NCBI GenBank assembly: GCA_001045525.1
Contig: LDWW01000023.1
Span: forward strand, 1-58,587
Length of the DNA stretch: 58,587 nt
DNA from: Chitinispirillum alkaliphilum
GTDB taxonomy: Bacteria; Fibrobacterota; Chitinivibrionia; Chitinivibrionales; Chitinispirillaceae
Reading direction: 5' to 3'
Positions within the stretch are counted from its first letter, which is position 1, and each line of letters begins with the position of its first letter. The notes beneath the pieces were generated by a model, which saw only the letters and a list, made by a program, of their open reading frames with translations, did not search any database and had not been told where the DNA came from. Shown here piece after piece: positions 1-57,590 of this stretch. A program made the position numbers and the translations under genes.

Positions 1-1612
1 GATGCTTGTCAATAAGGTCTTTATCTATTTGGTTAGTCTCTTCCATTATTGGATCTGATGAATCGGGCTGTTCATTAAAAGTGTCATCGATTCTTAAGGA
101 CTCATCATCCCCGTCTTTTTCTGTTGACTTCTCAAGCTGATCGTAGGGTAGAAGCTCGATATCATCTTCATTTTCAGGTGGTGAGTGTTGTTGGCTTGAA
201 TCGATCCACTTATCAATTTCTCCAGTGACATCATCTCCTGAGAGTTGCTCATTTGTTCCATCCTCTTCGTTTGCAATGAGTTCGGAGTTTTCTTCTGGAC
301 TTTCATTTTTCTCTCTGGTGTCCAAAAGTGAATCGATTTTTGAGGCTACATCATCTCCTGAGAGTTGCTCATTTGTTCCATCCTCTTCGTTTGCAATGAG
401 TTCGGAGTTTTCTTCTGGACTTTCATTTTTCTCTCTGGTGTCCAAAAGTGAATCGATTTTTGAGGCTACATCATCTCCTGAGAGTTGCTCATTTGTTCCA
501 TCCTCTTCGTTTGCAATGAGTTCGGAGTTTTCTTCTGGACTTTCATTTTTCTCTCTGGTGTCCAAAAGTGAATCGATTTTTGAGGCTACATCATCTCCTG
601 AGAGTTGCTCATTTGTTCCATCCTCTTCGTTTGCAATGAGTTCGGAGATTTCTTCGGTGTTTTCATTTTTCTCTCCGGTGTCCAAAAGTGAATCGATTTT
701 TGAGGCTACATCATCTCCTGAGAGTTGCTCATTTGTTCCATCCTCTTCGTTTGCAATGAGTTCGGGGTTTTCTTCTGGACTTTCGTTTTTCTCTCCGGTG
801 TCCAAAAGTGAATCGATTTTTGAGGCTACATCGTCGCCTGAGAGTTGCTCATTTGTTCCATCCTCTTCGTTTGCAATGAGTTCGGAGTTTTCTTCGGTGT
901 TTTCATTTTTCTCTTTGGTCTCTAAAAGAGAATCGATATTAGAAGCCAAATCATCGCCTGAGAGTGTACTTTCAGCTTCGGTTGAGTTTGTATCCTGGGG
1001 AGTGGCCCGAAAATCTAAATCCTCATTGTCTAAGGACTCGGCATCTGACCCCGTAGCCATCACATCCTCGATTTTTGATTCAAGGTCACCTACAGGGGAT
1101 TTCTCCTGATCTTTTTCAGACCTGAAATGGTCTGGAGAGTGTGGGGTAAGTTCTGCATTTTCAATTTCGATGTCAAGGATTTTGAAGATATCAGTTTCTC
1201 CGGAAGAGGGATATCTTGCGGAAAGGTTCTTAACAGAGTCATTTTCCGGGTCAATAGAGAGTAGAATATTATAAAGGTCCGCGGCTTTTTCTACCTGTTC
1301 CTGACGGGCATAGATATCTGCAAGCATTTTAATTGCCACGTGGTTTTTAGGGTCGATTCTGCAGACTCTGGAAAATTCTTCTGTAGCTTTGGAATAGTTT
1401 TCCTGTTCGAGAAAACATCTGCCTAAAATTATCCTTCCGGTTATATATTCAGAGTGCACTTCCAGGCCCTGGGAGCATAGTTCTATGGCATGTTCGATAT
1501 TACCATTTTTTCTGTGTATGTCCGCAACTCGTGAAAAAATTCGGGACTGGGGATTTTCTTCAAGAGTTTTTTCGAGTGATTCGACTTCTATCTCCCGTTT
1601 TTCAACAGCCAT
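1..1612 (-). CDS. TPR protein with acidic tandem-repeat tail (3' end beyond the window)
   Basis: The frame is open from an ATG at 1612 to the window edge (537 codons, no stop), so the C-terminus is missing. A good ribosome site (GGAGG, 6 nt upstream) supports the start. Residues 1-140 read as tetratricopeptide-like helices (short motifs NGNIEHAIELCSQGLE, EQENYSKATEEFSRVCRIDP and QEQVEKAADLYNILLSIDPEN), a protein-protein interaction scaffold. From about residue 215 the protein becomes very acidic and repetitive: a 40-residue unit with the motif LSGDDVASKIDSLLDT and a Glu/Asn-rich linker occurs six times plus a degenerate copy. No signal peptide or membrane segment is visible, so it is probably cytoplasmic. 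The complementary strand also carries a long open frame (225-1109), which is only a mirror of the repeat. The function is unknown. The next gene is a divergent flagellin. Confidence 0.85.
   Translation of the reverse strand, partial: MAVEKREIEVESLEKTLEENPQSRIFSRVADIHRKNGNIEHAIELCSQGLEVHSEYITGRIILGRCFLEQENYSKATEEFSRVCRIDPKNHVAIKMLADIYARQEQVEKAADLYNILLSIDPENDSVKNLSARYPSSGETDIFKILDIEIENAELTPHSPDHFRSEKDQEKSPVGDLESKIEDVMATGSDAESLDNEDLDFRATPQDTNSTEAESTLSGDDLASNIDSLLETKEKNENTEENSELIANEEDGTNEQLSGDDVASKIDSLLDTGEKNESPEENPELIANEEDGTNEQLSGDDVASKIDSLLDTGEKNENTEEISELIANEEDGTNEQLSGDDVASKIDSLLDTREKNESPEENSELIANEEDGTNEQLSGDDVASKIDSLLDTREKNESPEENSELIANEEDGTNEQLSGDDVASKIDSLLDTREKNESPEENSELIANEEDGTNEQLSGDDVTGEIDKWIDSSQQHSPPENEDDIELLPYDQLEKSTEKDGDDESLRIDDTFNEQPDSSDPIMEETNQIDKDLIDKH
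241..960. repeat. Six tandem 120-bp units inside the TPR gene
   Basis: Six head-to-tail units of exactly 120 bp. Units 241-360, 361-480 and 481-600 are identical base for base; units 601-720, 721-840 and 841-960 differ by a few substitutions, most in the last. A degenerate partial copy follows at about 961. Each unit encodes 40 residues in the minus-strand gene, so copy number can change without a frameshift. The identical units suggest recent duplication or gene conversion. Confidence 0.95.
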
Positions 1613-1921
1613 TAACCGCCTCCGCAAATATCCGGTAAGAACAGGATGGTTCTGATGGTGAATGTTACAATCAAACTGCTCATAACCAGTGAACAGTTGT
1701 GTTAAATATTACCACTCATATATTCATTATTCAATAAGACCGGTAAAAGAGTCCACGAATGTTTGTTACTATGAAGGAGCTGGCAATATCATATGGTTGA
1801 AATATACCATTCGGGCCAGGTCTCATAAAAAGTAACGGGTAAGGATTATTCTTCAGGAAATATACTTTATATATACAAATATATAGCAATGCAGAGATAA
1901 AATTAAACTTTGAAAAAAAGT

Positions 1922-1949
1922 TAAAGTTAAAAGGTGGCTGTGCCGATAT
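1922..1949 (+). promoter_or_regulatory. Sigma-28 (FliA-type) promoter for flagellin
   Basis: TAAAGTTA at 1922-1929, a 12-nt spacer, then GCCGATAT at 1942-1949. The FliA consensus is TAAAGTTT-N11-GCCGATAA, so each half has one mismatch and the spacer is one longer. It lies about 145 nt upstream of the flagellin start. The rest of 1613-2094 shows nothing else I can identify. Confidence 0.8.
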
Positions 1950-2094: not shown

Positions 2095-3270
2095 ATGCGT
2101 ATTAATCATAACATATCTTCAATGATAGCTCAGGGGTCGATTGCTGGAGTAAATCGATCAATGAGCACCTCGCTTCATAGGCTTTCCACAGGTCTGCGAA
2201 TAAATTCTGCAGCTGATGATGCTGCTGGATTGGGCGTGTCAGAAACTTTGCGTACTCAGGTGCGTGGCATGGGCCAGGCGATGAGAAATACCCAGGATGC
2301 AATAGCTCTGTTGAATATTGCTGACGGAGCCCTTAATGAGCAGGCTGAAATTCTGCAGAGAATGAGAGAACTTGTAATTCAGGCCAAAAATGAGACCTAT
2401 ACTCAAACTGAACGTGACTACATGGGTATAGAATTCAATGCTCTGATGCAGGAGCTTGATCGTATTGCAGAAACAACCAAATACAATAAGATGCAGATAT
2501 TTGCTACCCCGGCAAGCAGCGGTAACAATCTCAATGGTGTATATCTGGATTCTTCAGCGGAAACAGATCCACTCACTGCGAATAAAACAAGGCGGGCAAG
2601 GGATGTAAATGATGGTCCAATAGGTGACACTGACAGAGCTAGCGGGCACCATTTTAACATGATGATTGGTGCAAATTACAGTCAGGAAGATATGGATGCC
2701 TTTGCGGAAGCAACCAACCATTATGGGGCGGGGGCAGCAAATATGCTCACCATTTCCTTTGGGCAGATGGATTCCAATGCTCTTTTCCATATGGCCCCCA
2801 TAAATGCAATGGGGGAATTTGGGTTGGATGGAATGGGGTATTTCGGTGATTTTTCATGGGATCCGGAGACCAGTTTTGGTGACATGTCCATAGAATTTGC
2901 ATTGGGAGGGGAAGCTACAGTTGTAGATAAACTGAACATAATGCTTAAGGTTATTGATGGCGGAAAAGATCTCAGTGATGCAGAGAAACAACTCCTGTTT
3001 GTCGAGAGTACTGACAGTCCTACCGGCCTTGATCGTGTGAACAGAATGAGATCCTACATTGGAGCTATGACCAACCGTCTTGAACATACGCTCAATAATC
3101 TTGTGAGCCAAACAAATAACACCCAGGCTGCAGAGAGCCTTATAAGGGATGCTGATTTTGCGGCTGAAACCGCCACTTTTACAAGAAATCAGATCCTGAC
3201 CCAATCCTCCACTGCCATGTTAGCTCAGGCCAATTCAGTTCCACAGATGGTCCTGAGTCTTCTGGGTTAA
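2095..3270 (+). CDS. fliC: Flagellin
   Basis: Filament subunit of the flagellum, exported by the flagellar type III apparatus. The N-terminal D0/D1 region starts MRINHNI and contains LSTGLRINSAADDAAGLGVS (residues ~30-50); the C-terminal D1/D0 region (~300-391) contains RDADFAAETATFTRNQIL and ends VLSLLG, all flagellin hallmarks. The middle ~140 residues are Met/Gly/Asp-rich and variable, as expected for the surface-exposed part. The ATG at 2095 is preferred over the one at 2086 because AAGGA at 2082-2086 sits 8 nt upstream and the protein then begins MRINHN. It is monocistronic, between a sigma-28 promoter (1922) and an intrinsic terminator (3296). A shorter second flagellin lies at 36349. 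The symbol follows family naming. Confidence 0.95.
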   Translation: MRINHNISSMIAQGSIAGVNRSMSTSLHRLSTGLRINSAADDAAGLGVSETLRTQVRGMGQAMRNTQDAIALLNIADGALNEQAEILQRMRELVIQAKNETYTQTERDYMGIEFNALMQELDRIAETTKYNKMQIFATPASSGNNLNGVYLDSSAETDPLTANKTRRARDVNDGPIGDTDRASGHHFNMMIGANYSQEDMDAFAEATNHYGAGAANMLTISFGQMDSNALFHMAPINAMGEFGLDGMGYFGDFSWDPETSFGDMSIEFALGGEATVVDKLNIMLKVIDGGKDLSDAEKQLLFVESTDSPTGLDRVNRMRSYIGAMTNRLEHTLNNLVSQTNNTQAAESLIRDADFAAETATFTRNQILTQSSTAMLAQANSVPQMVLSLLG

Positions 3271-3295: not shown

Positions 3296-3330
3296 ATGAG
3301 TTGAGAACGCCATGTTTTCAACTCATTTTT
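3296..3330 (+). terminator. Rho-independent terminator after flagellin
   Basis: A 13-bp stem (3296-3308 pairing with 3314-3326, one G-T pair) with loop GCCAT, followed by a T run. It separates flagellin from the peptide-modification cluster, which therefore needs its own promoter; I could not identify one in 3331-3411. Confidence 0.85.
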
Positions 3331-3411: not shown

Positions 3412-4266
3412 GTGAACTCAGTTTATTCAATCGATAAGTTTTCTGTATGTGTGAACGCTTCTGATTTCCTTTATAATCAGCTTAGGGAAATAGTTTCATC
3501 TTTCTGCTTATCTGTCGATTCTCCTGTCTACAATCTTCATGTAAAAAGTGTAAGTGAAATAAAAATACCCTCAGATTCACTAAGCCGAGGAGATTGTTTC
3601 TACACCCAGTCTGATGATCTGTCTTTTTGTCTGATTAGCGAGCTGATACGTTTTGAAATATGTCTGCAGGAAAAAGAGGCAGTTCTTGAGGTTTGTGATC
3701 TCTCCGGACAGGATTCGTTGTCTTTTATCCTCTATGCACTGAAATGGTATATCTCTTTTATAACCATACATGAAGGGGGAATACCTCTTCACTCCTCATC
3801 CGTATTTGCTTGTGATAGAGCTTTTCTCTTTGCAGGAGAATCCGGGGCGGGAAAATCTACGATCTGTTCCATACTCTCATCTCATCCTGGAGGGTTCAGA
3901 AGAGGAAGTGATGAGTTTAACCTTTTGTTCATAACTGATGAAGGTGTGAAAGTCTTCCCAACACCATATACCTCTTCTGCCGGAGACTGCCAGTTCTTTG
4001 GTGGCATGGATCTTAAAAAACTCTATATAATCAAAAAAGCAAGTTATAACTGTACTCATCCTCTTGCTTTCAGAAACAAGTATTACAACTGTCTCAAAAA
4101 CATTTACACAAAACCGGCCAGCTCCTATCTTGCAGAAAAGATGTTTGAAAATGTTGAAATTGCAGCCTGTGCAGTTGACTGCAATGAATTATACTTTGCA
4201 AATAATAATTCACTGAGAAAATTCTTATTATCTGAAAACGGATTAAATTATGAATTGCAGAATTAA
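3412..4266 (+). CDS. HprK-like serine kinase family ATPase (peptide-modification cluster)
   Basis: 284 residues from a GTG start. A clear Walker A motif GESGAGKST is at residues 142-150, after a ~130-residue N-terminal region; IPLHSSSVF just before it fits the HPr-kinase C-terminal fold. The SDE of RRGSDEFNLL (~170) fits the acidic strand after the P-loop in HprK-like proteins. Family knowledge: stand-alone HprK-like proteins occur beside PqqD proteins in peptide-maturation clusters and one kind phosphorylates lasso peptides. Here the next gene overlaps it by 17 nt and encodes a PqqD-like protein, so a role in modifying or handling the small peptide at 5981 is inferred. It is unlikely to be the sugar-transport HprK, since no HPr gene is nearby and the N-terminal region differs. 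Confidence 0.8.
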   Translation: MNSVYSIDKFSVCVNASDFLYNQLREIVSSFCLSVDSPVYNLHVKSVSEIKIPSDSLSRGDCFYTQSDDLSFCLISELIRFEICLQEKEAVLEVCDLSGQDSLSFILYALKWYISFITIHEGGIPLHSSSVFACDRAFLFAGESGAGKSTICSILSSHPGGFRRGSDEFNLLFITDEGVKVFPTPYTSSAGDCQFFGGMDLKKLYIIKKASYNCTHPLAFRNKYYNCLKNIYTKPASSYLAEKMFENVEIAACAVDCNELYFANNNSLRKFLLSENGLNYELQN

Positions 4267-4513
4267 CAAGCAATTATCCATTCGCAAAATTGATGATGAA
4301 GTATTTATATATAACCGGGATAAATCCCTTGTACACGCGTTCAATAAAACGGGTGTGAAGTTTTGGGAAGCTTTGAGCCAAAACATACCGTTTGAAGAGT
4401 TAAGGGATGAAGTTCTGAATGAATATGAAGTTGAACCGGAGCAGCTTAAAAAAGATTTCCAAGATTTTAAAAACCAGTTAGTAAACCTGGGGATTATTGA
4501 GTATCATGATTGA
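4250..4513 (+). CDS. PqqD-like peptide carrier (RRE domain)
   Basis: 87 residues with the PqqD pattern: a beta-hairpin start (LSIRKIDDEVFIYNRDKSLVHAFN), the TGVKFWEAL helix, then helices ending in LVNLGIIEY. PqqD-type RiPP recognition elements bind the leader of a precursor peptide and present it to the modifying enzyme. It overlaps the kinase gene upstream by 17 nt and the radical SAM gene downstream by 8 nt, indicating translational coupling. The natural client is the 55-residue peptide at 5981, whose N-terminus has a YxxPxV motif of the kind such domains recognise (inference). Confidence 0.85.
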   Translation: MNCRINKQLSIRKIDDEVFIYNRDKSLVHAFNKTGVKFWEALSQNIPFEELRDEVLNEYEVEPEQLKKDFQDFKNQLVNLGIIEYHD

Positions 4514-5555
4514 AAGCGCAATTGGTAAAAAACTGGATGCCCTGGTTCAGAGAGGATTTTTGAGATCTGCATGTATTGAACTTACACAGAAGTGCAATAT
4601 TGCATGTGACTACTGTTATTTGACACAAAAGAAACATCAGCTTGAGCTGCCGGAAGTGAAATCAATAGTGAATAGAATTGATGAACTCGGAGTTTTAACA
4701 CTGATGCTTACTGGCGGAGAGATTTTTTACAGAGATGATATTATAGAAATACTAACCCATATTTTTAAAAAAGGGTTTTTCGACATTGTAATGCTTACCA
4801 ACGGAACCGCTTTCACAAAAGAACACCTCGGTTTCCTTTCGGATAACTCTGACAGGTTTACCTCCATCAGGTTCTCATTTTTTTCCCATATTCCAGACGT
4901 GCATGATGGATTCGTAAAGAAAAAGGGGGCGTTCAGTAAAGCCTTAAAATCCGCACAGCAGCTCAGGGATGCAGGAGTAAATGTTAAGGTAATAATAAAT
5001 CTTCTGGAACAAAATGTCGACAACTTCGGAGAAACAAAATCATATTTCACTTCACAGGGCTTTCAGGTAAGTATTGGTATAGCAAAGACTTTTCCCGATA
5101 AACATATTAAAGAGAACTATGAAAGTACAACGACAACTGATTTTTACCGGAAATTTTTCGATCAAATGGATGAAAAAGTACGTAAAGGAATGATGCGTGT
5201 TTATGATAAAGAAACAAAAAACAATAGATTGAAAGAATCGTTGTGTTCCAGCATGTTCGGGATTGCAACTGTTCTGGCTGATGGAACTTTGGTTCCCTGT
5301 CTTGCATTCAGAAATGTGCCTTTCGGCAATGTGCTAACTGATCCGCGGCCGATTACCCGGATTTTTTCAGAATCACCCTTGTATCAGAAATTAAAGAAAA
5401 CGACACGCTCTGATGTGGTATCCTGTAAAGATTGCAGACATGTCAATTATTGCAGGCCATGTCCGGGCGCCATGCTCGAAGAGAATAATTCTTATCTTCA
5501 ACCATGCAGTCAAATGTGTAATTATGTTGAATCACTCCATAACGTCTGCTCCTGA
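4506..5555 (+). CDS. Radical SAM/SPASM peptide-modifying enzyme
   Basis: 349 residues from ATG 4506; a TTG at 4497 in frame would add three. The radical SAM cluster motif CxxxCxxC is at C30, C34 and C37 (CNIACDYC), followed by the SAM-binding motif LTGGE (~68-72). The C-terminal region carries the SPASM pattern for extra Fe-S clusters: SLCSS, LVPCLAF, SCKDCRHVNYCRPCPG and PCSQMC. Enzymes of this build (AnSME, PqqE, MftC, sactisynthases) perform radical chemistry on peptides or proteins. No N-terminal RRE is fused, which fits the separate PqqD protein just upstream. The expected product is a crosslink, epimerised residue or other modification of the encoded small peptide; the reaction cannot be read from sequence. 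Confidence 0.92.
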   Translation: MIESAIGKKLDALVQRGFLRSACIELTQKCNIACDYCYLTQKKHQLELPEVKSIVNRIDELGVLTLMLTGGEIFYRDDIIEILTHIFKKGFFDIVMLTNGTAFTKEHLGFLSDNSDRFTSIRFSFFSHIPDVHDGFVKKKGAFSKALKSAQQLRDAGVNVKVIINLLEQNVDNFGETKSYFTSQGFQVSIGIAKTFPDKHIKENYESTTTTDFYRKFFDQMDEKVRKGMMRVYDKETKNNRLKESLCSSMFGIATVLADGTLVPCLAFRNVPFGNVLTDPRPITRIFSESPLYQKLKKTTRSDVVSCKDCRHVNYCRPCPGAMLEENNSYLQPCSQMCNYVESLHNVCS

Positions 5556-5997
5556 TCCGTATAACAAGTATAAGGCTCTGCTTGCGGATGGCGAAGCTGT
5601 CACCTTTACTTTACAGGGCAGATCAATGGAGCCATATATGAAAGAGGGTCAGGAAATCTCGGTTGTTAAAACAGATAAGCTGCACCGAGGGGATTGTTGT
5701 CTTATTAATTACAGAAACAGACTGTTGTTACACCGACTTGTCAAAACAGGGAAATCTGGATGCATTTTTATGGGGGATAATTCCCATACTTTTGAAATTG
5801 TGGATAGTAAAGATGTGTTGGGTGTTTCGGAAAAATCTACAAATGTTTCAATGCGTAAAATTTTAATCTCCGGTGTTGATCTTTGTGTTATCAGACTGGA
5901 TCAAACTTTTCGCCTTAAAAAAAAATCCATTGTCTGGCGTATCAGAAAGAGAATTATGGCACTTTTATTCAGAGGTTTTTATGAAGAAAGAATATGA
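5524..5997 (+). CDS. S24/S26 (signal-peptidase-like) protease, putative leader peptidase
   Basis: 157 residues from ATG 5524, which overlaps the end of the radical SAM gene by 32 nt; the frame is open further upstream but that part lies inside the SPASM domain and has no family similarity. Box B is GRSMEPYMKEG with nucleophile S34; RGDCCLINY follows; LLLHRLV places His70 where the ER/archaeal-type (S26B) enzymes use His instead of Lys; FMGDNSHTFEIVDSKDVLG matches box E. There is no N-terminal membrane anchor as in housekeeping LepB; the C-terminal ~30 residues are very basic. Its place between the modifying enzyme and the peptide suggests that it removes the leader (inference). Confidence 0.82.
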   Translation: MLNHSITSAPDPYNKYKALLADGEAVTFTLQGRSMEPYMKEGQEISVVKTDKLHRGDCCLINYRNRLLLHRLVKTGKSGCIFMGDNSHTFEIVDSKDVLGVSEKSTNVSMRKILISGVDLCVIRLDQTFRLKKKSIVWRIRKRIMALLFRGFYEERI

Positions 5998-6148
5998 AAA
6001 ACCGGAAGTCTTTACAGAGGATATCAGTTTGAGATTCGTAGGAGCCTGTTGTGAGGGCAGTACTGACGGAATGATTCCCGGACATACTCATGCATTTTTG
6101 TGCGGGCCGGCCTGCACCTATGTTTATGATGATTATCATTCGGCATGA
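5981..6148 (+). CDS. Small Cys-containing precursor peptide candidate (55 aa)
   Basis: The ATG at 5981 has an AGAGG site 5 nt upstream and overlaps the protease gene end by 17 nt, so it is the fifth coupled gene of the cluster. The N-terminal ~20 residues (MKKEYEKPEVFTEDISLRF) are charged and carry Y5-x-x-P8-x-V10, the YxxPx(L/V) signature seen in leaders recognised by PqqD-like RREs. The C-terminal ~35 residues are different in character: Gly-rich, with Cys at 23, 24, 41 and 45 (GACCEG, LCGPACTY), two His flanking Thr (GHTHAF) and a Tyr/Asp-rich end (YVYDDYHSA). This leader/core division is typical of RiPP precursors. I do not recognise the family. No transporter gene is adjacent. Confidence 0.75.
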   Translation: MKKEYEKPEVFTEDISLRFVGACCEGSTDGMIPGHTHAFLCGPACTYVYDDYHSA

Positions 6149-6159
6149 TTCACCAGACT

Positions 6160-6984
6160 TCATTTTTGCCGGGATATAAGCTTTCTGAACTTGTCTTCAA
6201 AACAGCGGAAAGCTAAAGCACAAGGATTTCTCACCAGGGAGCATTCAACTAATAATTGCCGCAGGTTTCGTCGTATACCCGTATACCGTTTGTGGCTCAA
6301 CCTGTTCACAAGGAACTGAGCCCAAAAAAATGATCTTAGTTCAACTGGTAATTTGGTATTTCTCTCTCTTGCATATCTTTTTAACAATGCATTTCCGAAG
6401 GGTTCGATTCCACTTCTCTTCAACAACTGTTGAAACGTACTCCAGCAAAATCTGTTTTGATTTATAAGTGTTTCAATCTCTTCAAATGTGCTTTTCTTGA
6501 ACCGCTCTGCTATGTGTACCAAACTATGACATATAAGAATGAGCAGGGCGTCTTCATTGCCTGAAAGCATCCTGACTTCAGTTTGGAACTCCGCACGGCT
6601 GAACAGCTCTTCGGTTGGGAGGTGAAATCGTTCCGGGCGATTGAGCTGGTGATGGATCTCAAGCTTAACAGCAATGCCATTATGGTCATACGTAAATGCC
6701 TGCTCAAACCGCCACGGATCCGGTTGGTGTTTAGTGAATGAATCATGATCAGAGAAAAATTCAATACATTTTTGATAATCTGCTTCTCTGACAAGCAGAT
6801 CAATATCTGTCATTGACCTGGTGGTAAGATTTCGGGACAGACCAGAGCAGATAAGATGTGCCCCTTTGATGGGCAGATAGTGAATGTTGAGATGCGCAAA
6901 AAATTTATCAAGGTCTTCAAGTACAGAACCATATACGAGTTGAGAAATAGCCCAGTTTTTTCCGCTGCTGGGTTCTCTATTCAT
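6160..6984 (-). CDS. Nucleotidyltransferase family protein (NTP_transf_5-like)
   Basis: 274 residues from ATG 6984, which overlaps the upstream HTH gene by 8 nt; a GTG at 7035 would add 17 residues but overlap more. The pattern fits the uncharacterised nucleotidyltransferase family PF14907: LPIKGAHL, then RSMTDIDLLV with the DxD metal-binding acids, VKLEIHHQL, and the helical second half with ALLILICHSLVHIA. Such proteins recur beside PqqD, HprK-like kinase and S26 peptidase genes in peptide clusters, and this gene converges on the peptide gene with only 11 nt between the two stops. It may belong functionally to the 3412-6148 cluster although transcribed oppositely. An AbiEii-type toxin is a less good fit (see rejected items). 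Confidence 0.8.
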   Translation of the reverse strand: MNREPSSGKNWAISQLVYGSVLEDLDKFFAHLNIHYLPIKGAHLICSGLSRNLTTRSMTDIDLLVREADYQKCIEFFSDHDSFTKHQPDPWRFEQAFTYDHNGIAVKLEIHHQLNRPERFHLPTEELFSRAEFQTEVRMLSGNEDALLILICHSLVHIAERFKKSTFEEIETLINQNRFCWSTFQQLLKRSGIEPFGNALLKRYARERNTKLPVELRSFFWAQFLVNRLSHKRYTGIRRNLRQLLVECSLVRNPCALAFRCFEDKFRKLISRQK

Positions 6985-7291
6985 CACTAACTTGCAAGGT
7001 GCTGTTTTGGTTGTCTGATTTGTGATTTTCGGCACTGATTACCCTATAAGTATGGGTTTTGGAGAGTTTTAGCATTTTTGCAATTTTGGTACCCGGTATT
7101 CCTTTTCTGTAGAGCTGGATGATTTCCTGATTTCTGTCGCTGTGCTTGTTTTGAACAGGGGGAATACCATGTTTTTTTCGTATCTGGTGCACAGCCTGTC
7201 TGCTGATTCCAAACAGCGCCCCGATTTCGCTGTCACTATGATATTTCTTTTGAAGCTTTTCAAGCTGGCTTTTACTGATTTTTTGCATCAT
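6977..7291 (-). CDS. Double helix-turn-helix protein
   Basis: 104 residues from ATG 7291, preceded by a GGGGG site; longer starts up to 7408 add 39 residues with no HTH character. Two HTH units are visible: SDSEIGALFGISRQAVHQIRKKHG (residues ~16-40, split here by its turn) and GIPGTKIAKMLKLSKTHTYRVI (~62-83), both like the resolvase/sigma-region-4 type. No catalytic domain is present, so it is probably a DNA-binding regulator or the partner of the nucleotidyltransferase, with which it overlaps by 8 nt. The target is unknown. Confidence 0.65.
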   Translation of the reverse strand: MMQKISKSQLEKLQKKYHSDSEIGALFGISRQAVHQIRKKHGIPPVQNKHSDRNQEIIQLYRKGIPGTKIAKMLKLSKTHTYRVISAENHKSDNQNSTLQVSDE

Positions 7292-15765: not shown

Positions 15766-16557
15766 GTGATAAACAGATGCAGGGGGAGAAAGATAAAACT
15801 ACATGGGTTTAACAATTTAACAAAATCCCTTAGTTTTAATATTTATGATATCTGTTTTGCCCGTTCAAAATCAAGTCAGATTGATTACCTTGAATACATT
15901 GATGAGGAATACAATTCACAGAAACTTCGCAGTATACTGGAGGAAGTAACAAACATTATCCAGGCGAAGATAGTTAACATCTCGACCCAGGATTATGACC
16001 CAAGAGGGGCAAGCGTCACAGTGTTAATCAATGAGGGGCACCACCCAAGTGGCGAAGAGAGCAAGGATGTTGTAGCCCATCTTGACAAAAGCCACATAGC
16101 CGCCCATACCTATCCTGAAAACAACACTGCAAACGGGATCTCTACATTCAGAGTGGATATAGATGTATCGACATGCGGGATGATTTCACCTCTGCGGGCC
16201 CTGGATTTCCTTATCGACAGTTTTGACTCCGATATTGTGTTGATGGATTACAGAGTGCGCGGATTCACCAGGGATATCAACGGACGTAAAATTTATATAG
16301 ATCATGATATTACTTCCATTCAGGAATATATTCCCGATGAGATTTTACGGAAATATACCGCATACGATATCAACATTGTTTCAGATAACATTTTCCATAC
16401 CAAGATGATGTTAAAAGATCTGAAAATGGAAAACTATCTCTTCGGCACTGAAGGTGAACGGTTTACGAAAACTGAAAAAGGCCGTGTTAAGACGTTGTTG
16501 AAAAAAGAGATGCAGGAGATTTTTGAGTGTAGAAACATCTTTGGCCAGGAGGACTGA
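15766..16557 (+). CDS. speD: S-adenosylmethionine decarboxylase proenzyme (E. coli type)
   Basis: Makes decarboxylated SAM, the aminopropyl donor for spermidine. 263 residues, the length of the class 1A bacterial enzyme. [19 protein letters not shown] at the N-terminus and [17 protein letters not shown] are diagnostic; autocleavage at K108-S109 yields the pyruvoyl Ser109. [21 protein letters not shown] and ENIFHTKM also match the family (NIFHTKM here). GTG start with a strong AAGGGGG site. Its TGA overlaps the ATG of speE (TGATG), so the two are coupled. First gene of a four-gene polyamine operon. Confidence 0.97.
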
Positions 16558-17483
16558 TGTCTGAGAAAGAAGTTGAAAAAAGGGTATTCAAGGAAGCGCT
16601 GAATCCAAATTTCGGTTATTATTACACTGTAAACAAGACGCTTCAGAAAGCCAAAACCCAATTTCAGGAAATTGAGCTTATTGAAACCGAAGAAATGGGA
16701 AATGTTCTTCTGCTGGATAATATCACACAGGTTGCAGATAAAAACGACTACATGTATCACGAACCTATGGTTCATCCTGCAATGTGTTCTCATCCAAAAC
16801 CGGAAAACATACTCGTTATAGGCGGCGGGGACGGAGGTATTCTCAAAGAGGTACTCAAGTATCCCACGGTCAAAAGAGTTGAGCATGCGGAGCTGGATGA
16901 AGGGGTTATACAGTTTTCAAGAAAATATCTGGATAAAGTGCATGGTGGCTCTTTTGAGGACCCCAGAGTGAATGTGAACATAGTGGATGGCCGCAAGTAC
17001 ACAATGGAGCACAAAGGGGAGTTTGATGTAGTAATCATGGATATGACAGATCCGTTTGGTCCATCAAAAATGCTTTATACAAAAGAGTTTTACGAAGCTG
17101 TCAACAGCGCATTCAGAGACAGAGCGGGTATTTTTGTGATGCACTCTGAGTCCCCGGTATCCCGTCCACTGGCCTTCTCCTGCATAAACCAAACCCTTAA
17201 TTCGGTTTTTGGAAAGGTTAATCATGTCTATACCTACATCCAGATGTATGCGGTGTTGTGGTCTGTGGCGATTTCCTCTCAGGATATCGATTCTTCCGGC
17301 ATTACGCCTGCTGTGGTTGAAGAGAAACTGAAAGAGTATGGCATTGAAGGGTTGAAGATGTATAATGGTGCGACTCATCTGTCCATGCACACACCTTTTC
17401 CCTATATTTCCGAAATATTATCCTCTCAAGGTCGTATAATTACAGACAATGAGCCGGATTTCCCCGATGACTTTATTTCCTGA
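16557..17483 (+). CDS. speE: Spermidine synthase
   Basis: Aminopropyltransferase joining decarboxylated SAM to putrescine. 308 residues. GGGDGGILKEVLKY binds the SAM moiety; DGRKY and MDMTDPFGPSKMLYTKEFY carry the acidic residues that bind the amine; YMYHEPMVHPAM is the substrate-loop motif. A ~15-residue N-terminal extension precedes the usual start of the fold. Coupled to speD by a TGATG overlap, and 24 nt before the decarboxylase gene. Confidence 0.95.
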   Translation: MSEKEVEKRVFKEALNPNFGYYYTVNKTLQKAKTQFQEIELIETEEMGNVLLLDNITQVADKNDYMYHEPMVHPAMCSHPKPENILVIGGGDGGILKEVLKYPTVKRVEHAELDEGVIQFSRKYLDKVHGGSFEDPRVNVNIVDGRKYTMEHKGEFDVVIMDMTDPFGPSKMLYTKEFYEAVNSAFRDRAGIFVMHSESPVSRPLAFSCINQTLNSVFGKVNHVYTYIQMYAVLWSVAISSQDIDSSGITPAVVEEKLKEYGIEGLKMYNGATHLSMHTPFPYISEILSSQGRIITDNEPDFPDDFIS

Positions 17484-17507
17484 TTAAGGAGTCGCAGCAA
17501 AAAAACT

Positions 17508-18608
17508 ATGGATTTTACCCGGGTTAGTGAGTTGGTGATGGAGCATGGTACTCCATCACTCTTTTTATCGGAAAGTCGCCTTAAAAACGGCTACAGATTG
17601 TTGGAGAAATCTCTCCCCGGTGTAGATCTGTACTATGCAGTCAAATCCAATGCCTGCACCGAGATAATCGACATTCTTAATTCTGAGGGAAGTTTTTTTG
17701 ATGTGTGCTCCAATGGTGAGATCGATATTGTAAGAGGGGCTGGGATTGCAGCAGAGCGCTGTATCCATACTCATCCTATAAAAAGGGACAGTGATATTCG
17801 ATATGCCCTTGATTTCGGAATGAAGATTTTCGTGGCCGATAATGAAGATGAGCTCCGGAAGTTCATTCCATACAAGGAAAAATGTGAACTTCTTATAAGA
17901 ATGAGTATACAGAACCCCGGGTGCCTGGTGAACCTGTCACACAAGTTTGGCATGGTACCTGAGCTGACCTTCGATCTGCTGAAGAAGGCCCATGAGCTTG
18001 GACTTAATGTCAAGGGCATAAGCTTTCACACGGGAAGTCAGAATGAAAACTCACTGAAGTATATCGAAGCCCTTGAATACTGCAGGGATATTTACAGAAT
18101 GGCTGCACTAAGTGGAATCTCTCTGGAGATGATTGATATCGGGGGAGGGTTCCCCATATCCTATCTGTCACAGGTTTTGCCACTTGCCAATTTTTGCCAG
18201 CCTGTTAATGAATATCTCTCAAGATATTTTTCAAACTACCGTATCATCGCAGAGCCGGGAAGGGTTCTTAGCGGACCCTCGATGTCTCTTGCCACAAAGG
18301 TAATCGGCCGTTCAAAGCGAAACGGGGTTTGGTGGTATTACTTGGATGAAGGGATGTATGGCTCGTTTTCGGGTAAAATGTACGATCATGCAGATTATCC
18401 CATGTTTGTATCAAGAACGGGGGAGAGGTTTAATTCTGTTCTGGCAGGCCCGACCTGTGATTCAATCGATGTGCTGTACGAAAACATTAGTCTTCCTCTG
18501 ATGGAGATCGGGGATGTGCTGATTTTTGAGAGCATGGGGGCATATACAAATGCCAGTGCTTCAGATTTCAATGGGTTCCCGAAGGCAAAAATCGTGGTGG
18601 TCGAGTGA
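17508..18608 (+). CDS. Ornithine decarboxylase-type PLP enzyme (group IV)
   Basis: 366 residues, alanine-racemase-fold decarboxylase. PLP Lys46 is in YYAVKSN; HTHPIKRD, ISFHTGSQ, IDIGGGFP, AEPGR (phosphate binding) and AGPTCDSIDV with catalytic Cys317 match eukaryotic-type ornithine (or lysine/ornithine) decarboxylases rather than DapC/LysA or carboxynorspermidine decarboxylase. It would supply putrescine for the speE product within the operon. Specificity between ornithine and lysine cannot be told from the sequence alone. Confidence 0.88.
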   Translation: MDFTRVSELVMEHGTPSLFLSESRLKNGYRLLEKSLPGVDLYYAVKSNACTEIIDILNSEGSFFDVCSNGEIDIVRGAGIAAERCIHTHPIKRDSDIRYALDFGMKIFVADNEDELRKFIPYKEKCELLIRMSIQNPGCLVNLSHKFGMVPELTFDLLKKAHELGLNVKGISFHTGSQNENSLKYIEALEYCRDIYRMAALSGISLEMIDIGGGFPISYLSQVLPLANFCQPVNEYLSRYFSNYRIIAEPGRVLSGPSMSLATKVIGRSKRNGVWWYYLDEGMYGSFSGKMYDHADYPMFVSRTGERFNSVLAGPTCDSIDVLYENISLPLMEIGDVLIFESMGAYTNASASDFNGFPKAKIVVVE

Positions 18609-18659
18609 TTAAATTATATTTCATTACAGTCTCAGAAGTGCAGAAGGAGTCAATTATCA

Positions 18660-19535
18660 GTGAACAGTAAAATACAGCATCCTGTCGTAAATGAAACTTC
18701 TCTTTGGATAGAGAACCTTATAAATGGTCTTTCCGGTATGACCATAAAGGCAAGGCATTCGCTGTATTGCGGTTCCAGTCCTTTTCAGAAAATTGAGGTT
18801 TATGACACCTATAGTTTTGGACTTGTGCTTTGTTTGGGTGGAACGGTTGTGCTGACTGAAAGGGACAGTGAGCCTTATCATGAGATGATGGTTCATCCGG
18901 CCATGCTTATGCACAAAGATCCTAAACGAATCTGCATCATCGGTGGTGGTGATGGAGGGTGCCTTAATGAGGTGCTCAGACATCCCGGTGTTGAGAATGT
19001 TGTGGTAGTGGAGATTGATGAGATGGTAAGGGAAACTGTCCAGAATTTCTTCCCCCAGTTTGGTAAGGGATTTGCAGATCCCAGGGCAGAAATGATCGTA
19101 GATGACGGCTACCATTTTCTCAGCGCTACAGACTTGGGGTTTGATCTGATTGTGGTCGACTCCTACGATCCGGGAGGGCCTGTGCACTCTCTTGAAACAA
19201 ACGATTTTTACAGCGTCGTTGCAAAAAGACTCAGGCCTGATGGGATTGCGGTTTTCCAGACTGGTCCGCCCCTGGTGAATGAGGAGTTTTTGAGGGATAT
19301 GACTCTTTCGGTTTCAGCCCTTTACGCTCAGTATAAACCCTTTATCTGCTCAATGCGCTCGTTCCCTGAAGGTATGTGCAGTTTTATAGCTGCCTCTCTT
19401 TCTGAAAACGGACTTGAGGCGTTCAGTGAATCGGGCTACAAGAGGATAAAGGATGAGTGCAGGTACTACAATGATGAAGTTCATAAGGGGGCTTTCATGC
19501 TGCCTCAGAACATTAAGAGTATTTTCAGGTCCTGA
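18660..19535 (+). CDS. Second spermidine/spermine synthase-family aminopropyltransferase
   Basis: 291 residues from GTG 18660, AAGGAG about 12 nt upstream. Same fold as the enzyme at 16557: GGGDGGCLNEVLRH, VVVEIDEMV, DDGYHFL, VVDSYDPGGPVHSLETNDFY. It is clearly diverged from the first copy, with a longer N-terminus and a different amine-site region. As the fourth gene of a polyamine operon it may add a further aminopropyl group (spermine or thermospermine) or use another diamine. The substrate is inference; the family assignment is firm. Confidence 0.88.
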   Translation: MNSKIQHPVVNETSLWIENLINGLSGMTIKARHSLYCGSSPFQKIEVYDTYSFGLVLCLGGTVVLTERDSEPYHEMMVHPAMLMHKDPKRICIIGGGDGGCLNEVLRHPGVENVVVVEIDEMVRETVQNFFPQFGKGFADPRAEMIVDDGYHFLSATDLGFDLIVVDSYDPGGPVHSLETNDFYSVVAKRLRPDGIAVFQTGPPLVNEEFLRDMTLSVSALYAQYKPFICSMRSFPEGMCSFIAASLSENGLEAFSESGYKRIKDECRYYNDEVHKGAFMLPQNIKSIFRS

Positions 19536-36252: not shown

Positions 36253-36348
36253 AATAAATGGGGAAGTAATATAACCGGCACGTTTGGCAGGAAGGGGAAG
36301 CCAGCCATAACGGACAGGATGTCGGAAAACACACAAGGGAGGTGTATT

Positions 36349-37161
36349 ATGTTTGTAGACTCACTCAGTCTGGCTGTGTCCCGCATAGGTAGTCATTACA
36401 ACACATCGCGAAAAGGTTTATCGGTTTCTCTTGAGAGACTTTCTACCGGGAGGCGTTTTGAGCAGCCCCGGGATGGTATTGGCGATTTTATCCGTATACA
36501 GCGGATCAGGCAGGATCGCAGGGATTATGACGAGATTTCAAAAAATCTCTCCAGAGCTACTGCAATACTGAACGTTGCTGAAAGTGCAGGAATGGAAGTT
36601 GTAAATAATTTTCAGAGGCTCAAAGAGATAACAGAGCTTTACCATATGCGTTCAACTACCGATGAAAACAGGTCTCTTTATGAGCTTGAGTTTGACACTT
36701 TGCTGGTCAACATGAATACCATAAAGAACACTATAAGCTTTGATGGCAAGCAGCTGATTCAGCATACAGACACTGTCGCAAGGATTAACCTCGACCCTCA
36801 TAATCCCGACTCAGTTCTTGAAATCCGGTTTGATGAGAGTCAGATGTTTGACACTTCCGGGCTGTCAATAAATTCGGGGGGATCGAAAGAAACTGCCATG
36901 CAGGCTATTGAGGAGCAGATGGGAAAGGCGATGCTTTATCTTGGGCAGACAAGCGGCTTTATGAGATCGGTAAATACACAAACAGAGCTTATAGGGTCTG
37001 TGGTGGAGAACGGACATGCGTATGAGTCAACTTTGGGAAGTATAAATGAAGTGGAAGAACTAAGTAAAATGGTAACCCATGATATGCGGCAGCAAGCTTC
37101 TATCTCAATGCTCATGCACGCCAATGTGGCCCGGCAGGCTATTCTGAAACTGCTCGGTTGA
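36349..37161 (+). CDS. Flagellin-like protein (short, no variable domain)
   Basis: 270 residues from ATG 36349, with GGGAGG 7 nt upstream; a start at 36319 would add 10 residues and separate it from its ribosome site. The N-terminal coil (ISRIGSH-like VSRIGSHYNTSRKGLSVSLE, RLSTGRRFEQPRDGIGDFIR) and the C-terminal helix (ASISMLMHANVARQAILKLLG) are flagellin D0/D1. The D2/D3 domains are missing and the usual MxINxN start is MFVDSL. It may be a minor filament subunit, a cap-proximal flagellin or a flagellin-type hook-junction protein. Expressed from a perfect sigma-28 promoter. Confidence 0.85.
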   Translation: MFVDSLSLAVSRIGSHYNTSRKGLSVSLERLSTGRRFEQPRDGIGDFIRIQRIRQDRRDYDEISKNLSRATAILNVAESAGMEVVNNFQRLKEITELYHMRSTTDENRSLYELEFDTLLVNMNTIKNTISFDGKQLIQHTDTVARINLDPHNPDSVLEIRFDESQMFDTSGLSINSGGSKETAMQAIEEQMGKAMLYLGQTSGFMRSVNTQTELIGSVVENGHAYESTLGSINEVEELSKMVTHDMRQQASISMLMHANVARQAILKLLG

Positions 37162-50752: not shown

Positions 50753-52396
50753 CTACAAATTTACTGTAAAATAGAAGGTGGCTCCTTTACCCTGTTCTCC
50801 TGTAGCCCAGATTTTTCCGTTATGTCTTCGTATTGCCCTTTTGACAATTGCCAGGCCTACGCCTGTTCCCGGAAAATCGCTTCCTGAATGCAACCTTTGA
50901 AACGGAGCGAATAAGTGCTCGTAGTCAGACATACTAAACCCAGCCCCGTTATCAGAGATAAAATAGACCGTTTTTCGGTTTTCCCTCTTTTTACCAAATT
51001 CAATAACAGGATTTTCACTGTTACCGGTATACTTCCATGCATTGCTCAGCAGATTTGAAATCGCAAGTCGAAGAAGTGAAAGATCTCCCTTTGTCTTCAA
51101 ATTTTCTTCAATCCTCACACTGACTTTTCTCTCTGGCTGACTTTGCTGCAGTTCATATATTATTGAATGAGCCATATCGGTAAGGTCAATTTCCTGAAAT
51201 TCCAGCTCCTGACGGCTGATTCTGGAGAGACTTAGCATATCGTTAATGATATTATTCATCTTGTTTGTAGAATCGACAATCCGATCGAGGTAGTCTTTGC
51301 CTGGTTGGTCAAGATTGTCTGCATAGTCTTCAAGAAGGATTTCACTGAATCCTGCAATAACTCTTAACGGTGATCTCAAGTCGTGGCTAACTGAATAACT
51401 GAAGGATTTAAGTTCGTCATTGGCAACGGAGAGTTCTTCTGCGTGTTTTTTGAGTCGTGTTTCCATTTCTTTGCGCTCTGTAATGTTAAGTCCTATGATG
51501 GCATGTCTTCCATCAGGAATTTCCACATTGGCCCAACTGGTTTCAATCTGTGTGCCATCTTTACGCGTGAGCTTAATATCCTTGAACTGATCAGTAGGGG
51601 TGTTGACAATTTCTTCTGCCAAAATTTTGTGCTCGGGATCAGGGTATAGACAACTCAGCAGATCGACCCCTTTAATTTCCTCATTTTTCCATCCGGTAAT
51701 ATGTTCAAAATATCGATTGACATCAAAGCTCGATTTGTCTTTGCTATAAATAAGGAGCATGATCGGAATCGAGTCAAATATCGTTTTGAGCAGTGCGCTC
51801 TGGCGGGTGAGCTTGTTGTTGAGCTCCTGCAGTTCCCATTTTGTTTTGGTCAACTCCCTGTTTGTTCTGTCCAGCTCCTGATTTTTTTGCATCGCATTTT
51901 CAAATGTTGACAGGAGAAGGTTAATTGTCTGCATTCTCCCCGCAGCAATAGAGTAGGTTTTCCCGCCATAGGTGATTTCAATTTCGGGAGTTTCCTCTTC
52001 CTGATCAATTGTCTCCCCTTTGAGGACGTTTTCTACTTTGGAGAGAAGATATGAATCGCTGTAGGGTTTGGTGATAAAGAAATCCGCTCCGCAGGTAAGA
52101 CCATTTATAACATCCTGCGGTTCAGTAAGCGCAGTGAGAAGAATAACTGGGATGGTTTTCAGGCCTGGTTCGGCCTTAATTCTCTGGCATAGTTCATATC
52201 CATTCATTTCGGGCATCATTATATCACTTAGGATAATATCGGGTGGATTGTTTTTTGCAATATTTAAGGCTCTTTTCCCGTTTTCTGCAGCCAAAACGTT
52301 ATATCCACTGCTTTGAAGAACCGCTTTGAGCCGTTCTCTTTGAGTTGCGCTGTCTTCTGCTATGAGAATAAACATTTCCTTTTCATATGAGTTCAT
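50753..52396 (-). CDS. REC-PAS-histidine kinase
   Basis: 547 residues. Receiver domain 1-130 (D58 in IILSDIMMPEMNG, VILLTALTEPQDVINGLTCGADFFITKPY), a linker coil, a PAS domain (~220-320: IFDSIPIMLLIYSKDK, RKDGTQIETSWANVEIPDGRHAIIGLNITERKE), then a phytochrome-type kinase (SYSVSHDLRSPLRVIAGFSEIL; RLAISNLLSNAWKYT; FSMSDYEHLFAPFQRLH; GTGVGLAIVKRAI). The start ATG 52396 overlaps cheB by 14 nt, so it is the last gene of the chemotaxis operon. Confidence 0.92.
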   Translation of the reverse strand: MNSYEKEMFILIAEDSATQRERLKAVLQSSGYNVLAAENGKRALNIAKNNPPDIILSDIMMPEMNGYELCQRIKAEPGLKTIPVILLTALTEPQDVINGLTCGADFFITKPYSDSYLLSKVENVLKGETIDQEEETPEIEITYGGKTYSIAAGRMQTINLLLSTFENAMQKNQELDRTNRELTKTKWELQELNNKLTRQSALLKTIFDSIPIMLLIYSKDKSSFDVNRYFEHITGWKNEEIKGVDLLSCLYPDPEHKILAEEIVNTPTDQFKDIKLTRKDGTQIETSWANVEIPDGRHAIIGLNITERKEMETRLKKHAEELSVANDELKSFSYSVSHDLRSPLRVIAGFSEILLEDYADNLDQPGKDYLDRIVDSTNKMNNIINDMLSLSRISRQELEFQEIDLTDMAHSIIYELQQSQPERKVSVRIEENLKTKGDLSLLRLAISNLLSNAWKYTGNSENPVIEFGKKRENRKTVYFISDNGAGFSMSDYEHLFAPFQRLHSGSDFPGTGVGLAIVKRAIRRHNGKIWATGEQGKGATFYFTVNL

Positions 52397-53453
52397 CTTT
52401 ATTCCCTTTTTCGATTCTTTTTAAGATCTGATGGGTGAATGCGGGCAGTTTTTGTGCAATCTGGGCAGGGTCGAATATGTATCTGACAGCATTGTATTCG
52501 ATTGCGGCTCCGGGCATTCCGTACACAATGGAAGAATCTCTGTCCTGAGCGATTGTTATACCTCCATACTCTCTGATTTGCTTCATCTCTTTTGCTCCGT
52601 CTTTTCCCATTCCCGTTAAAAGGACTGCAATGAGAGCGCTTTTGTATACTCTGCATGAGGAGCGGAACAGATATGAAACGGAGGGTCTTATGTTGTTTTC
52701 CGGCGGATCATCTCTAAGTACTATCCGCTCTTCAAAATCTACACCCATCTGGCAGTTATCAGGAGCAATATACACCCGCCCCGGTATTATCTTTTCGCCG
52801 TGAGATGCTAAGAGTACTTTTTTGTTGGTGGTCCTTTCAAGCCACACTTGTAAACCGTTGACAAAGCCCTCTGTTATATGCTGAACTACCAGTATAGCAG
52901 AGGGGAAATTGGCAGGGAGATTCGACAAAATGGCTTGAAGCACAGGAGGTCCCCCGGTAGATGCCCCTATTACCACAAGGGGAGATTTTGGTTGAATTTC
53001 CGACTCAATCTCAAAGTCTCTTTGTGATTTCTTCCTCCTTCTTGTCACCACTTTCACTTCAGACATGAGTCTAACAGTTTCTTTCAGTTTACTTTCTTCA
53101 ATGGTCCTTTTTTCAGGGTCTGAATCTTCCGGTTTTGAAATTAGAGCTACTGCTCCGGCCTGCAGAGCATTAAAGGTGTTTACTGTTTGTGAGTTGGTTT
53201 CCTTGTAACTCATGATAACTATCGGCAGCGGAGAAGTTTCCATGATTACTCTGATAACCTCGAAACCATCCTCACTGTGAGGTAAGGCCAAATCCATCAG
53301 CAGAAGGTCGGGTTTAAGGGAGCGGGCCAGTTCAATTGTATCAGAACTGTTATTGACGATATTCAGAACCGAAAATTTCTCATCTTCACTTAACAGATCG
53401 CGGATGTAGCGAGCTGTTTGAGGAGATTTATCGGCGATGAGAACTTTTATCAT
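52383..53453 (-). CDS. cheB: Protein-glutamate methylesterase CheB
   Basis: Removes methyl groups from (or deamidates) chemoreceptors. 356 residues: receiver domain with D54 (LLLMDLALPH), linker, and catalytic domain with S165 (GASTGG), H192 (VVQHITEGF) and D285 (GMGKDGAKEM), all intact. Downstream of cheA by 14 nt and overlapping the REC-PAS kinase gene. Confidence 0.96.
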   Translation of the reverse strand: MIKVLIADKSPQTARYIRDLLSEDEKFSVLNIVNNSSDTIELARSLKPDLLLMDLALPHSEDGFEVIRVIMETSPLPIVIMSYKETNSQTVNTFNALQAGAVALISKPEDSDPEKRTIEESKLKETVRLMSEVKVVTRRRKKSQRDFEIESEIQPKSPLVVIGASTGGPPVLQAILSNLPANFPSAILVVQHITEGFVNGLQVWLERTTNKKVLLASHGEKIIPGRVYIAPDNCQMGVDFEERIVLRDDPPENNIRPSVSYLFRSSCRVYKSALIAVLLTGMGKDGAKEMKQIREYGGITIAQDRDSSIVYGMPGAAIEYNAVRYIFDPAQIAQKLPAFTHQILKRIEKGNKDELI

Positions 53454-53467
53454 AAAGCACCTTTATT

Positions 53468-55678: not shown

Positions 55679-55837
55679 ATTCGCCCTAAAACAAAATGGT
55701 TTCCGTTAAATTTATGCATACTGGGTGTAAATAAGCGAATCTGTTTGCGGTATTTACATCCCCTCGATTTCTGCAGGGGACTGCATACGCCGCAAGTTTT
55801 TTCTCCCAGCAGGCATTACTCTCCCTGTAGCTGATTG

Positions 55838-56947: not shown

Positions 56948-57026
56948 ACAGAGCTCCTTCTCAGTTTTTATGGAATGATTTTTTGTTTTAATTCAGCTCA
57001 GAGTATCGATTATCTTACTTAGCTGA

Positions 57027-57590
57027 TCATGTATCGACAACGAGTCTTTTATCGCTTAAAATCTTTTCGGCATCGAGAACTATGAGCCGCTCCTTTGTAA
57101 CACCTGATATATAGGTCTCAAGTCGTTGGTTTATCATGTGGGGAGCCTTCCTGATCTCATTGACCCGAACAGATTGATATCCTGCTACAAGATCGACCAA
57201 AATTCCAAAACACATATTTTCTGAGTGTAAAATGATAACTCTGTTCATGTCACTTATTGCCTGCTTTGAAAGTCCCAGAAGTTCTCTCATATCCACAATG
57301 GACACAATATTCCCCCGTACATTTATAATTCCTGCAATGAATGGGGGGGTGAAAGGCAAAACGGTGAAATTTTTCAGTGTGAGGGTCTCCTGAGCAAAGT
57401 GGGAACTTACCCCATATCTTTCTCCGGAAAGTGTAAAGAGCACTAAGTCGGTAAACTCCTCTTTCTTCTCCTGAACAAGTGGTCTGGCAAGCTCTCTTGC
57501 CCGGGATTTCAAGATCATTTCATCGAGATCGGATCCCGAAGTTTTTTCTTTCTGCTGTTCAAAATCACCCAACCTAAACCTCTCTTTCAA
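57027..57590 (-). CDS. cheW: CheW-type coupling protein
   Basis: 187 residues. Links receptors to CheA. A ~45-residue charged N-terminal extension precedes the CheW domain (TDLVLFTLSGERYGVSSHFAQETL, FTPPFIAGIINVRGNIVSIVDMREL, CFGILVDLVAGYQSV). The proposed TTG start at 57590 overlaps the TPR gene by 17 nt; an in-frame ATG at 57518 is possible. Confidence 0.88.
   Translation of the reverse strand: MKERFRLGDFEQQKEKTSGSDLDEMILKSRARELARPLVQEKKEEFTDLVLFTLSGERYGVSSHFAQETLTLKNFTVLPFTPPFIAGIINVRGNIVSIVDMRELLGLSKQAISDMNRVIILHSENMCFGILVDLVAGYQSVRVNEIRKAPHMINQRLETYISGVTKERLIVLDAEKILSDKRLVVDT

Follow-up and report, generated by a model that had tools for sequence, protein, structure and literature searches.

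What would a short run of overlapping genes for peptide maturation do directly behind a flagellin gene? The question is raised by a stretch of 58,587 nucleotides from Chitinispirillum alkaliphilum (contig LDWW01000023.1, assembly GCA_001045525.1), which as a whole is called the window here. Its plus strand encodes an HprK-like kinase, a PqqD-type protein, a radical S-adenosylmethionine (SAM) enzyme with a SPASM domain, an S26-type peptidase and a small peptide. We suggest, with a probability of about 0.6, that these genes form a maturation cassette for a ribosomally synthesized and post-translationally modified peptide (RiPP), similar to that of the linear polyphosphorylated peptides (LPP) with a radical SAM enzyme added, that this cassette is attached to a flagellin gene of its own, and that its product acts together with this flagellin.

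A previous inspection of the letters without database searches (the sequence-only reading) had described five plus-strand genes which overlap by 17, 8, 32 and 17 nt, the last one coding for 55 residues with a YxxPxV motif. Our check of the open reading frames (ORFs) of the window reproduces this to the base, and the motif is YEKPEV. In Pfam the radical SAM protein (Radical_SAM, E = 2e-18; SPASM, E = 1e-7) and the peptidase (Peptidase_S24, E = 3e-6) score above cut-off. The kinase stays below every Pfam cut-off and far below those of the NCBIfam models HprK_rel_A (1.5e-7) and ScmC (2.6e-7); its homologues keep the P-loop and the HprK-type motifs, that is, PLHSS (PLHS), GxSGxGKST and DE. Homologues of the radical SAM enzyme have the CxxxCxxC motif and seven invariant cysteines in the SPASM region (C247, C265, C307, C310, C316, C319 and C338). 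The peptidase has a Ser in GxSMxP, a His in LxHRL and an Asp in [GA]D, all three conserved in 11 loci, and hydropathy reveals no N-terminal membrane helix in this protein. The catalytic signatures of all three enzymes persist at 28-40% identity among the homologous loci. No second PqqD protein is encoded in this genome. The solved structure nearest to the radical SAM enzyme is the sactisynthase SkfB (E = 6e-26), followed by PqqE, SuiB and CteB. An anaerobic sulfatase maturase (anSME), which according to the sequence-only reading would have overturned its proposal, compares at E = 1e-12, and we rejected this identity.

The peptide gene is preceded by AGAGG five bases 5′ of its ATG, and its product matches no family. 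We searched 168 genomes of Fibrobacterota and found close relatives of the radical SAM enzyme (E < 1e-30) in 12 of them, which belong to one order and six families. All 12 genomes contain small ORFs with the leader motif YxxPx[VIL], with Cys and usually with an Ala at the boundary between leader and core (FVGA/CC, FAGA/CC, LQA/EC, LSA/QC, MHA/GC). Such an Ala fits a signal-peptidase-like cut at the predicted site. Among 11 aligned precursors Tyr5 and Pro8 are invariant and Ala22, Cys41 and Cys45 nearly so, while the core is variable; all 12 precursors have Cys in the core. A search of the 168 genomes with the precursor alignment gave matches at E < 1e-4 in these 12 genomes and in no others, apart from G054, where two fragments interrupted by stops lie at contig ends (E about 1e-4). 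The precursor of genome G039 (MKNYVKPEVYTEQIKLDALCAECCTVINDEDPDYLGTNPPCLCDCTQLQPS) was found on a separate contig by a model built without this genome, and it sits exactly between the end of the radical SAM gene plus the S26 gene and the convergent transferase gene. It is an out-of-sample success of the precursor model. The order HprK, PqqD, radical SAM, S26, small ORF recurs in every locus with enough contig, nearly always with the convergent transferase gene next. The peptide is not a chance ORF: 12 genomes have this gene order together with a small YxxP ORF, at identities of the radical SAM enzyme down to about 29%. The sequence-only reading would have been refuted by homologous loci that lack the small ORF or its leader motif, but both are present wherever the contig leaves room for them.

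The locus shows two general traits of RiPP clusters: the leader of the short precursor is conserved while its core varies, and a RiPP recognition element (RRE) and a modifying enzyme are encoded beside it. RiPP maturation at this locus is in our view highly probable. Domains, conserved residues and the nearest solved structure also support the division of labour put forward by the sequence-only reading, with separate parts for recognition, radical modification, possible phosphorylation and cleavage. The peptide could instead be the source of a small redox cofactor resembling pyrroloquinoline quinone (PQQ) or mycofactocin, as PqqD and SPASM proteins are common to these pathways. We consider this very improbable, since the core varies in length and sequence, has no conserved Glu-Tyr or C-terminal Val-Tyr and is accompanied by no other cofactor genes.

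The sequence-only reading knew of no described family with the full set of genes. This is not supported: the LPP system (LppA/K/B/S/D/N; Popov et al. 2026, PMC13381572, May 2026) has as its core a kinase, a discrete RRE, a SipW-like peptidase, an NTP-transferase and a precursor with YxxPxV. There the discrete RRE binds YxxP, the HprK-like kinase adds several phosphates to a Ser of the core and the SipW-like peptidase (S29/H68/D93) cleaves only with the RRE; an NTP-transferase is present as well (PMC13381572). Biochemistry has been published for LppK, LppB and LppS (PMC13381572); for lasso clusters it covers the HprK protein and the nucleotidyltransferase (PMC8498205). Judged by sequence, the window cassette has in common with LPP a discrete RRE, an HprK-like kinase, an NTP-transferase and a SipW-like leader peptidase, whose Ser, His and Asp we aligned by eye with those of LppS (PMC13381572), further a short precursor whose leader has YxxPxV and whose core varies, and the lack of a lasso cyclase. 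It differs by the radical SAM/SPASM enzyme, the Cys in the cores, the flagellin gene heading the operon, the boundary Ala where LPP have Thr, and the host phylum Fibrobacterota. An MsbA-like transporter is found neither among the ORFs around the window cassette nor in the homologous loci, of which only that of G033 has ABC genes, read as polysaccharide-export type. From the LPP leader YxxPxVLxHQxIxFETxxS only the YxxPx[VIL] part is present, and HQxIxFETxxS is missing. We suggest that the system works like LPP, but as transporter and full leader motif are not found we do not file it as one. By these precedents it is best described as an LPP-like pathway with added radical SAM chemistry, and the cassette joins this chemistry to the RiPP architecture of kinase and SipW-like peptidase.

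The novelty of the gene set is also countered by the SynChlorMet cassette of NCBIfam (ScmC/ScmD/ScmE/ScmF), which combines HprK-like, PqqD-like and SPASM radical SAM proteins. This cassette has two radical SAM enzymes and no flagellin, and the window proteins reach only 30 of 125, 20.6 of 100 and 100 of 400 bits against the cut-offs of ScmC, ScmD and ScmE. S26 and PF14907 genes adjoin a true SynChlorMet cassette (locus L068, above all four Scm cut-offs), and in L071 an S26 gene and Cys-rich YxxP small ORFs lie beside SynChlorMet-like genes. Phosphorylated or phosphoglycosylated lasso peptides such as paeninodin and pseudomycoidin (PMC8498205) share the HprK homologue, the tailoring by a nucleotidyltransferase and the discrete RRE. 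A lasso peptide was rejected for the window, because the asparagine-synthetase-like macrolactam cyclase, already noted as missing in the sequence-only reading, is absent from the cluster and so is the B2 protease; a radical SAM enzyme is found instead. The maturases of sactipeptides and ranthipeptides (SkfB, AlbA, SuiB, CteB) are likewise SPASM radical SAM enzymes for Cys-containing peptides. In the window, however, a protein of its own serves as RRE, the cluster also has a kinase, a transferase and an S26 peptidase, and the radical SAM enzyme lies far below the SkfB and AlbA family cut-offs.

Although its RiPP interpretation is supported, the sequence-only reading overlooked two members of the conserved block, namely the convergent nucleotidyltransferase and the upstream flagellin (Table 1). 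The transferase gene holds the same place in eight of the nine homologous loci with that stretch (G021, G020, G037, G001, G036, G035, G030, G039), is five genes away in G033 and does not adjoin the peptide gene in G022. The linked flagellins have about 380-410 residues. In 10 of the 12 genomes their gene is the immediate upstream neighbour of HprK; in two loci the two genes are 17 and 31 nt apart. In full-length comparisons continuous matches (E < 1e-90) were restricted to the cassette genomes and G017; other flagellins, mostly of 285-325 residues and many per genome, match at the ends only (E > 1e-50). A search with the middle region hit 13 of the 168 genomes, that is, the 12 with the radical SAM enzyme and G017, whose copy is cut by the contig end; this overlap of all 12 is a co-occurrence within one order and uncorrected for phylogeny. 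Two further candidates were discarded: a fragment in G019 (C115) has a leader resembling that of ordinary flagellins, and a radical SAM fragment in G017 (C255) is generic. The structural model of the window flagellin is of moderate confidence (predicted local distance difference test score 71) and matches solved flagellins only (E = 3e-12), so that we claim nothing for the middle region. The genome has ten matches to flagellin domains, among them a divergent flagellin-like protein at 36319-37161 of the window (Flagellin_N, 58.6 bits), at a long distance from the others.

Putative control signals lie at the flagellin, the first gene of the block. The putative sigma28 promoter of the window is equalled in score by shuffled sequences in 1 of 200 cases, and five homologous loci have an exact 12/12 match, TAAA-N15-GCCGATAA; across loci the site lies about 170-215 nt upstream of the flagellin. 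Between flagellin and HprK we found no sigma28-like site (best 7-9 of 12). The same hairpin as at the window flagellin precedes every linked flagellin with a readable leader and is, like the promoter, assigned by consensus only, here as a presumptive target of CsrA. Ordinary flagellins (e.g. L024, L160, L163) have ACAAGGAGG before the start without the hairpin arms, hence two leader types per genome. In the window a second, terminator-like hairpin separates flagellin and HprK, and the downstream genes may therefore be expressed by read-through.

The usual left neighbours of the block are rfaE2-like and tetratricopeptide repeat (TPR) genes, the right neighbour is a small helix-turn-helix (HTH) gene. 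Four genomes (G033, G035, G036, G037) have the whole stretch from flagellin to transferase between rfaE2 and HTH, and in the window the block is flanked by the TPR gene on the left and the HTH gene on the right. This home site is empty (TPR, rfaE2, in part PEBP, HTH, with neither flagellin nor cassette) in G004, G016 and G039. In G039 and G030 the block lies together with its flagellin on other contigs, away from the home site. As the HTH gene is one of several paralogues, the boundary argument needs rfaE2/TPR and HTH jointly. From the empty, filled and moved sites we conclude that flagellin and peptide genes share gain, loss and relocation. The rfaE2-like neighbour was rejected as part of the system, because it and the TPR gene occur in relatives without the block. 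Positive Mantel correlations were obtained among the genes of flagellin and cassette (0.46-0.63 for flagellin), which do not separate function from shared descent.

A scan of genome contigs with a single sequence found nothing; a profile scan reached other phyla but drew in many generic radical SAM proteins. Clusters of PqqD, radical SAM and HprK-like genes are present outside the phylum in Elusimicrobia, Nitrospirae, Acidobacteria, Omnitrophota, Bacillota and archaea, and S26 and PF14907 genes as well as Cys-rich YxxP small ORFs often accompany them; L099, from a metagenome-assembled genome of Bacilli, has radical SAM, HprK, PqqD, S26 and PF14907 genes together. Across 80 loci scanned no flagellin lies within about 8 kb of the cassette relatives except in Chitinivibrionales. 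As a separate observation, YxxP small ORFs with CxxG-type repeats in the core lie beside PqqD, radical SAM and HprK genes in several phyla and an archaeon (L058, L078, L082, L101, L105), apparently a large and so far undescribed precursor family. In an acidobacterial locus (L092:2737-6609) HprK is directly followed by an ORF of 1291 residues with a gingipain-type Peptidase_C25 domain and a weak S26 match in the same frame.

Several points weigh against the explanation suggested at the outset. The relatives without nearby flagellin indicate that the chemistry needs no flagellin, and in G001 and G032 the flagellin lies elsewhere in the genome, unlinked to the cassette. The co-occurrence has the phylogenetic limit given above. 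The hairpin 3′ of the flagellin could insulate the operon. The block lacks a transporter, which leaves export unexplained. Within the variable core no Ser/Thr position is invariant, so that no fixed phosphorylation site is visible; two of the 12 precursors have an odd Cys content, and G032 lacks the boundary Ala. The cassette might instead make an ordinary secreted or intracellular RiPP unrelated to the filament, its genes being kept behind the flagellin by joint regulation or because the loci descend from a single ancestor; most linked loci do share one ancestral site. We consider this unlikely, since block and flagellin were lost together at the home site and moved together in G030 and G039, and since the long flagellin class is confined to cassette genomes.

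Flagellins are commonly glycosylated. The flagellin itself could hence be the substrate of kinase and PF14907 transferase in a phospho-glycosylation of the filament, with peptide, RRE and radical SAM enzyme making a cofactor or regulator. The conserved extra middle region of the long class would suit this, as would the glycosyltransferase genes after the transferase in L017, L020 and L021. However, HprK and PF14907 proteins accompany RRE and YxxP peptides elsewhere without flagellin, and the LPP kinase acts on the peptide (PMC13381572), which makes such a role of the flagellin quite improbable.

We therefore return to an LPP-like cassette whose product acts with the flagellin; a functional tie between the two is probable. 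The comparison shows the gene content, the catalytic motifs, the conserved leader and Ala, the occurrence, gain and loss of the cassette jointly with the flagellin, and the promoter sequence. For the chemical steps, their order, the product and its flagellar role we infer the following. The flagellin would be transcribed by sigma28 at a late stage of flagellar assembly, and transcripts that pass the hairpin would supply the downstream genes at a lower level. The PqqD protein would bind the YxxPx[VI] leader. The SPASM enzyme would apply radical chemistry to the core with its Cys residues; the most likely outcome is cross-links, either a thioether as in sacti- or ranthipeptides, to which we give an even chance, or others. 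The HprK-like kinase would phosphorylate a Ser or Thr of the peptide, and a sugar would be added to this phosphate by the PF14907 transferase. The S26 peptidase, with its substrate presented by the RRE, might finally cut after the conserved Ala and release a core of about 33 residues. This product would work together with the long-class flagellin, either on the filament or through it. More tentatively, the radical-SAM-matured, phosphorylated peptide might be made along with a filament of this special flagellin and either leave through it or be attached to it, and the pathway would then be part of the motility or surface apparatus.

Among the motile Fibrobacterota of this branch the genes stand directly behind the long flagellin and come and go with it, and this is why we think that the flagellum may have a ribosomal peptide natural product of its own. 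The biological role of LPP and paeninodin-type peptides is unknown, and the LPP paper mentions neither radical SAM enzymes nor flagella (PMC13381572). A relative of LPP that has its locus, its promoter and its evolutionary fate in common with one flagellin directs the search for such a role to filament, export channel or motility. Our literature search for flagellin together with RiPP or SPASM returned nothing relevant; within it the coupling to flagellin is new, the enzyme core being known from LPP.

Table 1. Features at the flagellin-linked cassette (window coordinates)
Feature	Position	Strand	Basis
TPR protein gene running off the contig; left boundary, outside the block	1..1645	-	48% identity to the TPR gene adjoining the block in G020
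Putative sigma28 (FliA)-type promoter, TAAA-N16-GCCGATAT	1922..1949	+	11/12 match; 173 nt before flagellin start
CCAACAAGGATGTTGG hairpin at flagellin start, putative CsrA-type site, ACAAGGATG in loop	2077..2092	+	Consensus
Long-class flagellin, first gene of the block	2095..3270	+	Flagellin_N, 149 bits; continuous matches confined to flagellins of cluster genomes
Terminator-like hairpin, 14 pairs and T run, in flagellin-HprK gap; possible attenuator	3296..3326	+	Window sequence
HprK-like kinase (LppK/ScmC-like)	3412..4266	+	HprK_rel_A and ScmC matches below cut-off; motifs
PqqD-type RRE	4250..4513	+	PF05402, E = 7e-11, above cut-off
Radical SAM/SPASM enzyme	4506..5555	+	Pfam matches; CxxxCxxC and seven invariant SPASM-region Cys; nearest structures
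S26/SipW-like leader peptidase	5524..5997	+	Peptidase_S24 match; conserved Ser, His, Asp
Precursor peptide, 55 residues	5981..6148	+	Leader MKKEYEKPEVFTEDISLRFVGA, core CCEGSTDGMIPGHTHAFLCGPACTYVYDDYHSA; boundary predicted
PF14907 nucleotidyltransferase (LppN/pseudomycoidin-N type), convergent	6160..7035	-	E = 4e-21
Small HTH gene; right boundary, outside the block	6980..7285	-	Comparison of loci

The minus-strand TPR gene at the contig edge contains a 120-bp tandem repeat, with six copies and 94% matches, at 228-965 of the window. Two further gene groups were recognized when the translations were read by eye. A polyamine cluster with an S-adenosylmethionine-decarboxylase-like gene, two spermidine-synthase-like genes and a decarboxylase extends over 15766-19535, and a chemotaxis and signalling run with CheA-, CheB-, MCP- and CheW-like genes occupies the minus strand at 50753-58383.

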